In this document: piece by piece, positions 9,480-38,175 of the stretch | Position numbering within the stretch: the first letter of the stretch is position 1 | Layout: each line of letters begins with the position of its first letter | Assembly (NCBI GenBank): GCA_903834765.1 | Contig: CAILKE010000004.1 | Location: 310,001 to 374,000 of the forward strand | DNA: 64,000 nucleotides | Reading direction: 5' to 3' | From: an uncultured Bacteroidota bacterium | Lineage (GTDB): Bacteria; Bacteroidota; Bacteroidia; B-17B0; Aurantibacillaceae | Made by a program: the position numbers and the translations under genes | The notes under the pieces: generated by a model | The model's database searches: none | Seen by the model: only the letters and a program-made list of their open reading frames with translations | Told to the model about the DNA's origin: nothing

Positions 9480-9551
9480 ATGAAATAGCCTTGTGTCGAA
9501 TATCGCTGCACGAATTAAGAAACAAGGCTATTCCATGTGACAAATAAAAAA
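9480..9551 (+). repeat. Short hairpin element, copy A (5' leader of TlpA-like gene)
   Basis: Begins ATGAAATAGCC and ends GGCTATTCCATGTGACAAATA. ATAGCCTTGT (9485-9494) and ACAAGGCTAT (9522-9531) form a perfect 10-bp stem. The pairing continues outward as ATGAA/TTCCAT with one A-C mismatch. The loop is 27 nt. It ends 12 bp before the ATG of the next gene. Confidence 0.75.
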
Positions 9552-9562
9552 AACTTCTACAA

Positions 9563-10078
9563 ATGAAATCAGCATTTATTTTATCTTCAGCAATTATCCT
9601 CTTGTTCTCTGCGTTTACAAAATTTGACGGAGGGAAGTTGCCTTCAGCTACTATTAAGAAATTAGACGGATCATCGATCAATTCAAATACCATTTCGAAT
9701 AATGGAAAGCCAATGATTATTAGCTTTTGGGCTACTTGGTGCAAACCATGCAAAAAAGAATTAGATGCAATAAATGAAGAATATGCCGAATTAGTAAAAG
9801 AAACTGGCGTTAAATTAATTGCTATTTCTATAGATGATGCGCGTAGCTCTGGAAAGGTTGTGACAGACGTTAAATCTAAAGGCTGGGAATATGAGGTTTA
9901 TATAGATGAAAATCAAGATTTTAAAAGAGCGATGAATGTCAATAATGTGCCTCATACATTTTTAATTGATGGTAATGGTCAAATTGTATGGAGCCATAAT
10001 TCTTATGCAGAAGGCGATGAAGATAAATTATTTGAAAATGTACGAAAGCTTGCTAAAGGCGAAAAGTTGATACATTAA
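9563..10078 (+). CDS. TlpA-like thioredoxin-family protein
   Basis: 171 aa. A hydrophobic N-terminus (residues 1-18) acts as signal peptide or anchor. A TlpA/ResA-type thioredoxin domain follows, with the active site WCKPC (Cys60, Cys63), the FWATWC lead-in, and the cis-Pro region VPHTFLIDG (Pro130). It is expected to work as a thiol-disulfide reductase in the periplasm. It heads a co-directional set with a DUF6029 barrel and an Omp28-like lipoprotein that itself carries CxxC, so a role in handling disulfides of those envelope proteins is plausible. Hairpin copy A lies immediately upstream. Cytochrome c maturation is another possible role, but the ccm genes are 30 kb away. Confidence 0.85.
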   Translation: MKSAFILSSAIILLFSAFTKFDGGKLPSATIKKLDGSSINSNTISNNGKPMIISFWATWCKPCKKELDAINEEYAELVKETGVKLIAISIDDARSSGKVVTDVKSKGWEYEVYIDENQDFKRAMNVNNVPHTFLIDGNGQIVWSHNSYAEGDEDKLFENVRKLAKGEKLIH

Positions 10079-35481: not shown

Positions 35482-36216
35482 ATGGAAACAAATTCTAGAA
35501 ATACAAACCTTGATAATATTGAAAGCGCTACTATCGTTGGGCGTAAAAATGCTTTAGCTTCAGTTTTTGGCTGGATGTTTATAGGTATGATTCTTACAAC
35601 TATAGCGTCTTTAAGTTTTGCTTTTGTTCCAAGTCTATTGTCGTTAATGGTAACTACCGAGAATGGATTTATAACTGGTAAAAGTATTTTAGGTCATGTT
35701 ATTACTTTTGCACCTTTGCTTTTATTAATTGGCATGGGAGCTGGTTATCGTAAATTACCATTTATAGGATTGGCTGCTTTGTTTATGGCATTCTCAACTT
35801 TATTTGGTATTAGCATCAGCTATATATTTATCATTTATGAAGTTGGCTCAATAGTCAATGTATTTTTATCAACCTGTGCTTTATTTGGTATCATGGCTGG
35901 TGTGGGATATTTCACAAAAACGGATTTGACCAAAATGGGAAATATATTAATGATTGGTGTTATTGGAATATTCGTAGCGTCTTTAATTAATTATTTCGTT
36001 GGAAGTAGTCAAATGGGTTATATCATCAGCGTAATTGCAGTGATTATTTTTACAGGTTTAACTGCTTACGACATGCAAAAAATTAAAAACATGTTGCAAG
36101 ATAATGATGGATCTGAAAGCTATAAAAAACTAGCACTTTGGGGTGCATTAGATTTATATTTAGATTTTATCAATTTATTTTTATCTCTGCTTCGTATTTT
36201 CGGATCAAGAAAATAA
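35482..36216 (+). CDS. Bax inhibitor-1 / YccA family membrane protein
   Basis: 244 aa with seven hydrophobic helices, the BI-1/YccA fold. The C-terminal FTGLTAYDMQKIKNML segment followed by WGALDLYLDFINLFLSLL is the diagnostic motif, including the Asp residues that in BsYetJ control a pH-dependent calcium leak. In E. coli YccA binds and protects against FtsH proteolysis. Either a calcium-leak or a protease-modulating role is possible here. Monocistronic: it has its own promoter box and a strong terminator at 36233. Confidence 0.9.
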   Translation: METNSRNTNLDNIESATIVGRKNALASVFGWMFIGMILTTIASLSFAFVPSLLSLMVTTENGFITGKSILGHVITFAPLLLLIGMGAGYRKLPFIGLAALFMAFSTLFGISISYIFIIYEVGSIVNVFLSTCALFGIMAGVGYFTKTDLTKMGNILMIGVIGIFVASLINYFVGSSQMGYIISVIAVIIFTGLTAYDMQKIKNMLQDNDGSESYKKLALWGALDLYLDFINLFLSLLRIFGSRK

Positions 36217-36232
36217 TTGAATTAATTCGAAC

Positions 36233-36276
36233 AAAAAAGCCACACGTTTTCAGAAATGAAAGCTTGTGGCTTTTTT
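36233..36276 (+). terminator. Rho-independent terminator of the BI-1 family gene
   Basis: AAAAAAGCCACA (36233-36244) pairs with TGTGGCTTTTTT (36265-36276). It is 17 bp beyond the stop and ends transcription before the two tandem hairpin elements. Confidence 0.85.
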
Positions 36277-36300
36277 ATTTAATAAAAATAAATAAATTTA

Positions 36301-36385
36301 CAAATGAAATAGCTATGTGCTGAATTGTAAAAATGCGAAAGAATATTACATAGCGTATTCCGTATAACAACTTAAAATAAATAAA
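36301..36385 (+). repeat. Short hairpin element, copy B
   Basis: Starts ATGAAATAGC (ATG at 36304) and ends TATTCCGTATAAC. ATA-GCTATGT (36309-36318) pairs with ACATAGC-G-TAT (36348-36358) with one bulged G. The stem sequence differs from copy A but pairing is kept. It lies just upstream of copy C in the same orientation. Confidence 0.65.
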
Positions 36386-36390
36386 ATAAT

Positions 36391-36482
36391 ATATGAAATA
36401 GCCATGTTTGCCGAAACACAAACACATCCCGATAGCTATCGGGAGAAGATAAACTGGCTATACCATATGGTAAATAAAAAAC
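36391..36482 (+). repeat. Short hairpin element, copy C, with a 30-bp palindromic insertion
   Basis: Starts ATGAAATAGCC (ATG at 36393) and ends GGCTATACCATATGGTAAATA. ATAGCCATGTTTG (36398-36410) would pair perfectly with CAAACA (36419-36424) joined to TGGCTAT (36455-36461). The 30 bp between these two pieces (36425-36454) contain the 16-bp palindrome CCCGATAGCTATCGGG (36428-36443). The element ends about 15 bp before the lipoprotein start at 36497. Confidence 0.72.
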
Positions 36483-36496
36483 AATAATTTAGACAT

Positions 36497-37018
36497 ATGA
36501 AAAAATTAGCTTTAGTAATCTTAACTGTTGCGTCATTTTATAGTTGCGATCGTATTAATCAAAAAATTGCCATTAAACATAATGATGCTGTTATAGAAGC
36601 AAGCGATAAAGTTGTGTTTGCTTTTGATAAATTAAATAATTCTTTGGCAACGTTCAACCCTGACAGTATTGACCTAGCTTTAGCAGCTTACAATTTGCAA
36701 ATAAATAATTCTATACTAGAACTTAATCAAGCAGTTTCAATCAATGATACTTCATTAAAAGTAGGAACACGTGAAATGCTTTATGTTTTTAAATCGGTTG
36801 GAAGTAATGAGTTTAAACAAATAAGAACCATTTATCAAATTCCTGATTCTTTATATACCGAAAAAGAAGAGAAAGAAGTAACTGATATTGCTTCGGCTAT
36901 TGACGAAAAAATAGAAGCAGCTCAATTAAAGCAACAAAATATTCAAAAAGCGTTTGCTAAAAGATTCAACTTTGAATTGATGTTTAATAAAGATTCGCTG
37001 AAGAATAAAGCGCATTAA
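36497..37018 (+). CDS. Hypothetical lipoprotein
   Basis: 173 aa. The signal peptide has a lipobox at residues 14-17 (FYSC, Cys17). The mature protein is almost entirely alpha-helical by composition, with long polar helices and no recognisable enzyme motif. I do not recognise a family with confidence; small helical lipoproteins of this kind are common in Bacteroidota. It is preceded by two tandem copies of the hairpin element (B and C), which is the most notable thing about it. Its 3' end is 30 bp from the convergent hemW gene, with no obvious terminator between. Confidence 0.7.
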   Translation: MKKLALVILTVASFYSCDRINQKIAIKHNDAVIEASDKVVFAFDKLNNSLATFNPDSIDLALAAYNLQINNSILELNQAVSINDTSLKVGTREMLYVFKSVGSNEFKQIRTIYQIPDSLYTEKEEKEVTDIASAIDEKIEAAQLKQQNIQKAFAKRFNFELMFNKDSLKNKAH

Positions 37019-37047
37019 ATTTAACTTGAACTATTATTTCTAATATT

Positions 37048-38175
37048 CTAAACAAACAAATCGCTCGCAATTTTATCGGCCAGCAATTTCCCTTTATTAG
37101 TGAGGATGTAAGCATTATCTTTTAAAATAATTGTTTCATCTTTGATAAATGCAATCACTTCCTTTTTAAAAGTAGAAATAAAATCTGCATTGAAATGAGT
37201 GTTTAAGTAATCTATGTTAATGCCCCATATTGTTCTTAAAGAAGTCAAAATGTATTCGTTAAAACGATTATTTTCTGTAAGAATTTCTTTCTCAAAATAA
37301 CTAGTATCGTTTGCTGATAGTTTTTCAATATAACTATTGTTATTGGCTACATTCCATTGCCTAGATTCGCCATCAAAGGAATGTGCTGATGGTCCGAGGC
37401 CTAAGTAATATCTTCCTTTCCAGTAATTCGAGTTATGTTTGCTGAAAAAATGCTCTTTGCCAAAATTAGAAATTTCATAATGAATAAAATTATTTTTTTG
37501 TAAACGTTCTACCATTTCTATAAACAACTCCGCACTTTTTTCATCATCAATTACTAGTTCTTTTTTCTTTGTGACATCATGCCCTAATTTTGTTTTTTCT
37601 TCAACCGTTAAATTGTAACTTGAAATATGTTTAATATCTAAGTCAATTGCTTTATTAAGGGTTGTTTTCCAATTGCTGAGGTTCGAAAATTTGGAACCAT
37701 AAATGAGATCAATAGTGATATTTTCAAAACCTTTATCTTGCGCTCGTTTAACACTAGCTTCGCTTTCGGATGCAGTGTGAGCTCGATTCATCCATTTTAA
37801 TTCTTCTTCGTCAAAGCTTTGTAATCCTATACTCAAGCGATTAATATGTAATGATCTTAACTCTTCCAGTTTAGTTGCAGATAAGTCGTCTGGATTGCAC
37901 TCTAATGTTATTTCTGCCGAAGAACTTACATCGTATAGTTTGTAAATTTTTTCTAAAATAAGATGCGTTTCTTTTTCAGATAATAAACTTGGAGTTCCGC
38001 CGCCAAAATATATGGTTTCAATTTTTTTATCAGGTAAATAATTAATGCGATAATCCAATTCTTTGATGATGCTTGATACTAAACTTGCTTTGTTATTTAG
38101 TGAAGTTGAAAAATGGAAATCACAATAGTTGCATGCTTGTTTGCAAAAGGGAATATGGATGTAGATACCACTCAT
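37048..38175 (-). CDS. hemW: Radical SAM haem chaperone HemW (coproporphyrinogen III oxidase-like)
   Basis: 375 aa. The radical-SAM motif CxxxCxxC is at Cys11, Cys15 and Cys18 within YIHIPFCKQACNYCDFHF. The next blocks, IYFGGGTPSLL, LECNPDDL and RLSIGLQSFDEEELKWMNRAH, are the HemW/HemN group signature. HemW has lost the coproporphyrinogen oxidase activity of HemN and acts as a haem chaperone delivering haem to respiratory proteins; a short N-terminus before the first Cys fits HemW. It follows ccmF by 27 bp, so haem trafficking and cytochrome c maturation are probably co-expressed. Confidence 0.88.
   Translation of the reverse strand: MSGIYIHIPFCKQACNYCDFHFSTSLNNKASLVSSIIKELDYRINYLPDKKIETIYFGGGTPSLLSEKETHLILEKIYKLYDVSSSAEITLECNPDDLSATKLEELRSLHINRLSIGLQSFDEEELKWMNRAHTASESEASVKRAQDKGFENITIDLIYGSKFSNLSNWKTTLNKAIDLDIKHISSYNLTVEEKTKLGHDVTKKKELVIDDEKSAELFIEMVERLQKNNFIHYEISNFGKEHFFSKHNSNYWKGRYYLGLGPSAHSFDGESRQWNVANNNSYIEKLSANDTSYFEKEILTENNRFNEYILTSLRTIWGINIDYLNTHFNADFISTFKKEVIAFIKDETIILKDNAYILTNKGKLLADKIASDLFV

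Follow-up and report, generated by a model that had tools for sequence, protein, structure and literature searches.

A short hairpin repeat that probably lands after start codons and regenerates them in an uncultured Bacteroidota genome

Introduction

The REP of REP/RAYT systems is described as a small palindrome, 20-40 bp in length, one end of which carries a GTAG or CGTC tag (PMC3733652), and the Bacteroidetes are described as possessing a RAYT subclass of their own, whose flanking hairpins are unusual (PMC6006769). The repeat analysed here resembles REP/BIME sequences and their RAYT (TnpA-REP) in being a short hairpin that is present in many copies and would be spread in trans. It was followed from one copy, copy C, in a window of 64,000 nucleotides (the whole stretch of DNA that was analysed) to the host genome (G000; 3.63 Mb, 79 contigs) and its relatives. 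The open-access literature searched yielded no account of a repeat whose targets are start codons that it then regenerates; within the reach of these searches, this targeting mode is apparently undescribed for a short mobile repeat.

Results

Copy C and its fold

Copy C is a member of a dispersed repeat family, and the letters and coordinates that the earlier note gave for it were all correct. The features that the text needs are the following.

9483..9565, + strand: unit A (probably the earlier note's copy A), 83 bp, with the stem TAGCCTTGT/ACAAGGCTA
36307..36395, + strand: unit B (copy B), 89 bp, older and of another subfamily, in tandem upstream of unit C; also present in the related genome G010
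36393..36395, + strand: ATG preceding unit C and at the same time the final triplet of unit B; from here G010 continues straight into the gene
36396..36499, + strand: unit C (copy C), 104 bp, AAATAGCC...CATATG, the probable mobile unit, identified by its repeat family and its precise absence in G010 (L128/L131)
36398..36410, + strand: ATAGCCATGTTTG, 5′ arm of the unit C hairpin (letters and fold)
36419..36424, + strand: CAAACA, proximal half-arm, confined to some subfamilies
36425..36454, + strand: loop/junction region of unit C, 30 bases, the "insertion" of the earlier note
36427..36444, + strand: TCCCGATAGCTATCGGGA, REP-like palindrome nested in the unit C loop
36428-36443, + strand: CCCGATAGCTATCGGG, 16-bp palindrome (letters checked)
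36451..36461, + strand: AAACTGGCTAT, distal 3′ arm, of the form usual for the copy C stem type
36455-36461, + strand: TGGCTAT (letters checked)
36462..36496, + strand: AT-rich segment containing TAAAAAACAATAATTTAGACAT, which becomes the new leader before the start codon
36497..37018, + strand: target gene, which starts at the last ATG of unit C and encodes a 173-aa predicted lipoprotein-like protein (MKKLALVILTVASFYSC...)

The ATG at 36393..36395 and the next six bases read ATG AAA TAG (Met-Lys-stop). The 173-aa product of 36497..37018 had no match in Pfam. As a single strand, unit C folded at -13.5 kcal/mol (z -6.7), and the fold is not a matter of chance, since none of 200 shuffles equalled it. 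The two half-stems named in the earlier note are exactly those that fold, together with the palindrome hairpin. We also observed that AAAC at 36451-36454, just 5′ of TGGCTAT, can pair as well with GTTT of the left arm, with one bulged T, and that the same split occurs in palindrome-free sister copies; both points were absent from the earlier account. A scan for sigma-70-type promoters gave none on the strand of the unit, a result of little weight because Bacteroidetes promoters are of a type other than sigma-70.

The repeat family

With 111 bp around copy C as the query, a graded family was retrieved across the whole of G000, in which the left end ATGAAATAGCYATG had 35 exact sites. The units follow the plan AAATAGCC - hairpin - AT-rich leader - CATATG, most of them being 80-105 bp long, and the aligned consensus of most copies reads ATG / AAATAGCCATGTTTG - loop - AAACTGGCTATACCATATG - AT-rich - ACATATG / gene. 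Unit A has the same architecture as unit C and adjoins the second codon of a 171-codon ORF (MKSAFILSS...); its stem differs from that of copy C by a paired change. The stems of copies A and B in the window are preserved by paired changes (CCTTGT/ACAAGG, CTATGT/ACATAG), a covariation whose support is thin because few variants exist. Other subfamilies carry uninterrupted stems of 7-10 bp (TAGCCATGTT/AACATGGCTA) or, with a bulged G, TAGCCATGT/ACATGGCGTA.

The loops and arms vary further. Units at L006, L033 and L039 have an extra loop stretch of ~60 bp containing ACTCAAC...GTTGAGT, and long loops resembling this type were seen in other genomes (L149, L296). At the JAMPYA loci (e.g. L155, L165, L168) a further piece, AAACGTTAGTTCGTGAATACCAAAAAGAAAATAAATAAGGAATGAACAATT, is nested in the right arm of the unit and itself ends in an A-rich leader and ATGAAC.

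The left-end 16-mer was found in 25 of 87 genomes of the family, representing four of its ten genera, and among the matches listed the named carriers of the full structure were mostly uncultured Flavobacteriaceae and Bacteroidia MAGs. One carrier, G016, has its own near-identical subfamily, which suggests independent bursts. A class-wide search gave 3 of 395, with a pattern that covers one subtype only, excludes the commonest right arm and has no match in G000. A viral source was rejected (an 18-mer had seven matches in viral contigs, and the other viral search gave none), as was carriage by phages or plasmids, for which all matches were weak and partial, with E 0.06 or worse.

Empty sites in a related genome

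In G010, a genome of the same genus, the ortholog of the window gene is 87% identical. Its locus (L128 and L131) has a copy-B-like unit that runs into ...AATATATG/AAAAAATTAGC, and the 104 bp of copy C are entirely missing. The arms, the "insert" and the new start therefore arrived together. For ten further G000 sites, the flanks were joined and searched against the genus. G010 gave strong matches to six of the ten queries, and four of these (L003, L013, L017, L034) span the junction without a unit; at L027 and L033 the upstream flank was not conserved, and both were left out of the empty-site count. The cleanest empty site is L013, where G010 has AAAACTACATATGAAA and G000 has AAAACTACAAATGAAA-units-ACATATGAAA.

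We conclude that copy C is very probably one copy of a non-autonomous mobile repeat that lands after start codons and regenerates them. An immobile unit, inherited with its genes as a conserved cis-acting leader RNA of the attenuator or riboswitch kind, would explain the sense orientation just before a start codon and the stable hairpin, and the ATG-AAA-TAG frame may couple or block translation. Such a leader is very unlikely given that the downstream genes are unrelated, the empty sites are clean, units form tandem arrays, and copies are near-identical within a genome and belong to different subfamilies between genomes. In addition, a scan of 35800-37100 of the window against Rfam gave 18 matches, all below the gathering score and none within unit C.

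The nested palindrome

The earlier note had proposed that this locus first held an intact hairpin with a perfect 13-bp stem, into which a 30-bp element carrying the palindrome CCCGATAGCTATCGGG was inserted afterwards, and had suggested a genome search for the palindrome. In the window the palindrome is present a single time (0 expected from shuffles), and it is found at 37 places in G000, against none for the reversed control; it is a separate, over-represented repeat, and its nesting inside the hairpin element was borne out. The contexts, 31 distinct ones listed, comprised 17 outside units, 12 in units and two in units missed by the rule. Within the units of G000 it takes two positions, the loop and a place just right of the stem, and a one-base variant lies in the loop of a unit from another genome of the genus (L099).

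The kind of element that the earlier note described was thus right; its time and place were not. The exact complementarity of the half-arms, which fold together, and the independence of the palindrome as a repeat both speak for an invaded stem. Nevertheless, this history is highly improbable. The comparison of orthologs, which was to show the 30 bp as always or sometimes present, instead gave a locus in G010 that lacks the whole element and keeps copy B. Moreover, all 11 palindrome-free sister units in G000 have 13 bases, CCAATTATTAAAC, between CAAACA and TGGCTA, whereas palindrome units of the copy C kind have a spacer of 30 bases, with ATCCCGATAGCTATCGGGAGAAGAT in place of CAATTATT. The net gain of copy C over its sisters is accordingly 17 bases, not 30. 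Among the matches listed, 84 distinct units have the copy C stem type and 28 of them have CAAACA, with spacers of 13 (13 units), 15 (7), 21, 24 and 30 (6) bases. The perfect 13-bp stem, with a spacer of 0, is not an observed state, as it occurs in none of the 84.

The palindrome is a passenger that one subfamily acquired before its spread: a REP-like palindrome entered the loop in an ancestor of that subfamily, which then spread carrying it.

Several other palindromes and repeats were noted. A different nested palindrome, TCCCGAATCAAGTTCGGGACAAGTTATG, follows ACCAT at L030, L039 and L049, and it is at a small number of positions within the unit that nested palindromes are found again and again. 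At two contig ends (L088, the end of G000:C52, and L090, the start of G000:C75) there is a ~78-bp tandem array with the palindrome (CCCAGCTGGCGGTCCCGATAGCTATCGGGAGG...); the two are probably one array divided by the assembly. At L091, palindrome copies at 714-729 and 906-921 lie 192 bp apart in similar surroundings and look like repeats in a coding region.

Position at start codons

Units lie immediately 3′ of an ATG, which is nearly always a gene's start codon and in most cases one that reads ATGAAA. With a unit in place, the old start reads ATG AAA TAG, and the last ATG of the unit is in frame into the same gene. This final ATG joins the second codon of the gene, so the protein is unchanged and the leader is new. 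For counting, we took the terminal unit (the last of each array) from G000, from other genomes of its genus and family and from records of named Bacteroidia. Before the count of 117 units, the control on unit-free ATGAAA at Bacteroidia loci and the comparison of stems, 20 loci were removed that were chance matches in unrelated bacteria or had no unit structure. Right ends were parsed without a preference for ATGAA in one count (117 units) and with it in another (113 units).

Among the matches listed, the frame from the last ATG of the unit was at least 80 codons long in 96 of the 117 terminal units, 50-79 codons in 2 and shorter than 50 codons in 17, while in 2 the locus ended first; about five of the 17 units, which by our rule have no downstream gene, were misparsed or read into a degenerate tandem unit. 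The second codon was AAA in 101 of the 117 (among the matches listed), versus 93 of 363 predicted genes in the G000 stretches. The genes downstream of units are unrelated to each other; to judge by their protein starts, some may encode GAPDH, a sugar nucleotidyltransferase, a LytTR-type regulator, GcvT and a DEAD-box helicase. The bases before the left ATG resemble a normal leader, A-rich at about -10 to -13 and with T at -1 in 73%.

As a control, 119 of 253 unit-free ATGAAA sites outside genes at the unit-bearing Bacteroidia loci were gene starts, as were 48 of 74 of those with T before the ATG (TATGAAA) (both among the matches listed); in the G000 stretches the figure for ATGAAA was 74 of 170. 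By comparison, 92 of 108 units were at starts (among the matches listed; the 113-unit count minus 5 cut units), which gives p 2e-16 against 119/253 and p 2e-6 against 48/74. In G000 alone, 18 of 25 units were at starts (p 0.004-0.008). The excess at start codons is clear against the ATGAAA control and modest against the TATGAAA control. Units hardly ever lie within genes, frequent as ATGAAA is in them (583 in 464 kb of the G000 stretches): a long upstream in-frame open stretch (at least 60 codons) preceded only 3 of the 113 terminal units among the matches listed, one of them a parse artefact.

Three readings of this bias were weighed. Selection alone, acting on an enzyme that inserts at any TATGAAA, with the survivors being those insertions that do not break genes, comes close to an even chance. 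It draws on the frequency of ATGAAA as a start (93/363 genes), on its regeneration by the unit and on the truncation that in-gene insertions would cause. Against it, an intergenic ATGAAA that is not a start should be equally harmless and is yet under-used, as the proportions of 92/108 and 119/253 (or 48/74) indicate. In the reading that we favour, a TATGAAA-like target and selection against in-gene insertions together would produce the bias, leaving over some preference for starts. The third reading, which we put forward tentatively and as decidedly short of even, is a dedicated start-codon-seeking system, in which an enzyme would recognise start regions (TATGAAA, unstructured DNA) and insert a hairpin cassette, with the result of swapped 5′ leaders in many genes across the Bacteroidia. 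The cassette would close the old start with a stop and bring a ready-made leader and ATG, the protein being kept. Bacteroidetes are described as generally lacking Shine-Dalgarno sequences (PMC3155529), so a tail that is AT-rich and unstructured may be enough for a leader to work.

Junctions and the search for the enzyme

Where the second codon of the gene is AAT (L105), AAC (L086), AGA (L157), AGT (L279) or GAA (L290), the left copy is still ATG-AAA; the left junction is constant, ATG/AAATAGCC. As the left ATG-AAA is invariant, the simplest reading is a single join right after ATG, AAA being the first three bases of the unit. The regenerated ATGAAA is a target in its own right, which is why tandem arrays form.

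The same junctions bear on site-specific recombination, in which a tyrosine-recombinase-like enzyme, rather than a single-strand transposase, would exchange a circular intermediate at an ATGAAA core. ATG(AAA) is identical at both ends and common to tandem units, and the bulged hairpin with its variable loop may recall folded integron sites. We consider this route unlikely, though well short of negligible: at genes with a non-AAA second codon, the left copy stays AAA and the right is the gene's own, which fits one cut after ATG better than the exchange of a 6-bp core.

Returning to a single-strand transposase, a trans-acting enzyme would recognise the hairpin of the unit, most likely as single-stranded DNA. 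An enzyme of the HUH type is a plausible candidate, at somewhat less than even chances. A Y1-type HUH enzyme fits units that lack terminal inverted repeats and have a hairpin beside the end, a fixed target beyond the left end and a copy of that target at the right end.

The mobilising enzyme was not found, and neither Y1 nor Y2 transposases follow the distribution of the units. Y1_Tnp was present in 12 of 20 genomes of the genus, including unit-free ones. G016, which is 99% complete and has 12 left ends, lacked it, as did the unit carriers G009, G003 and G017; as a simple explanation, Y1 was rejected because its presence and absence do not track the units. For the preference for the lagging-strand template that is expected of Y1 transposition, 12 of 19 stretches had the predicted sense, the skew signal being weak. 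Y2_Tnp (PF04986) was likewise rejected, with a partial match in one of the 20 genomes, a unit-free one, and none in G000. Among the matches listed, none of the units enclosed a gene, and a motif scan of the unit loci gave no Y1-like ORF.

The one Y1 gene of G000 (RAYT-like, 191 aa; L095 1180-2080, G000:C53) has ACCTGTCAGGTTTT-AAAACCTGACAGGT palindromes on both sides, presumably its own REP; the flanking palindrome is ACCTGTCAGGT, and no units are there. At L143 and L145, tandem hairpin arrays (AAGCCYGMAGGGCTTGAACATGAATAGA) lie upstream of single Y1 genes, and their ATGAATAG piece is reminiscent of ATGAAATAG in the unit.

Discussion

If the proposed targeting is true, the repeat can insert at the start codon of nearly any gene that begins with ATGAAA and leave the gene intact, thereby escaping the usual cost of insertion. 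New 5′ leaders, and with them changes in expression, would also arise naturally in this way. Annotation could be misled by the ATG-AAA-TAG mini-frames and by wrong starts, and the units offer a natural leader-swap series with occupied and empty alleles.

In comparison with known systems, the units resemble MITEs of DDE transposons in being short, non-autonomous and high in copy number. They differ from them in that the ends AAATAGCC and ACATATG are, by inspection, not complementary, so that there are no terminal inverted repeats, and in that the shared bases are always ATG(AAA) and not a variable target duplication. The imperfect bulged hairpin, the very variable loop and the tandem arrays are like those of integron attC sites; unlike in integron cassettes, we saw no cassette gene and no known attC core in the units.

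The units share several traits with MITEs of the IS200/IS605 type: they insert 3′ of a short fixed sequence, have no terminal inverted repeats, carry a hairpin close to the end and finish in a copy of the target ((T)ATG). The left ATG lies outside the unit and the right ATG inside it, as the empty sites confirm, an arrangement that does not single out IS200/IS605, since a 3-6 bp duplication would look identical. Unlike these MITEs, the units have no linked cognate Y1 and no autonomous partner among the matches listed; their hairpin begins at most 2-3 bases from the left end, and their target is a start codon that the unit rebuilds.

Unlike the REP of a REP/RAYT system, the units do not flank the RAYT-like gene of G000, and G016, which bears units, has no Y1 match. 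They begin with AAATAG before the stem, and their size and ends differ from the REP palindrome and its tag. Compared with a REP, the unit is an 80-105 bp element with one hairpin and a translation leader, placed after start codons.
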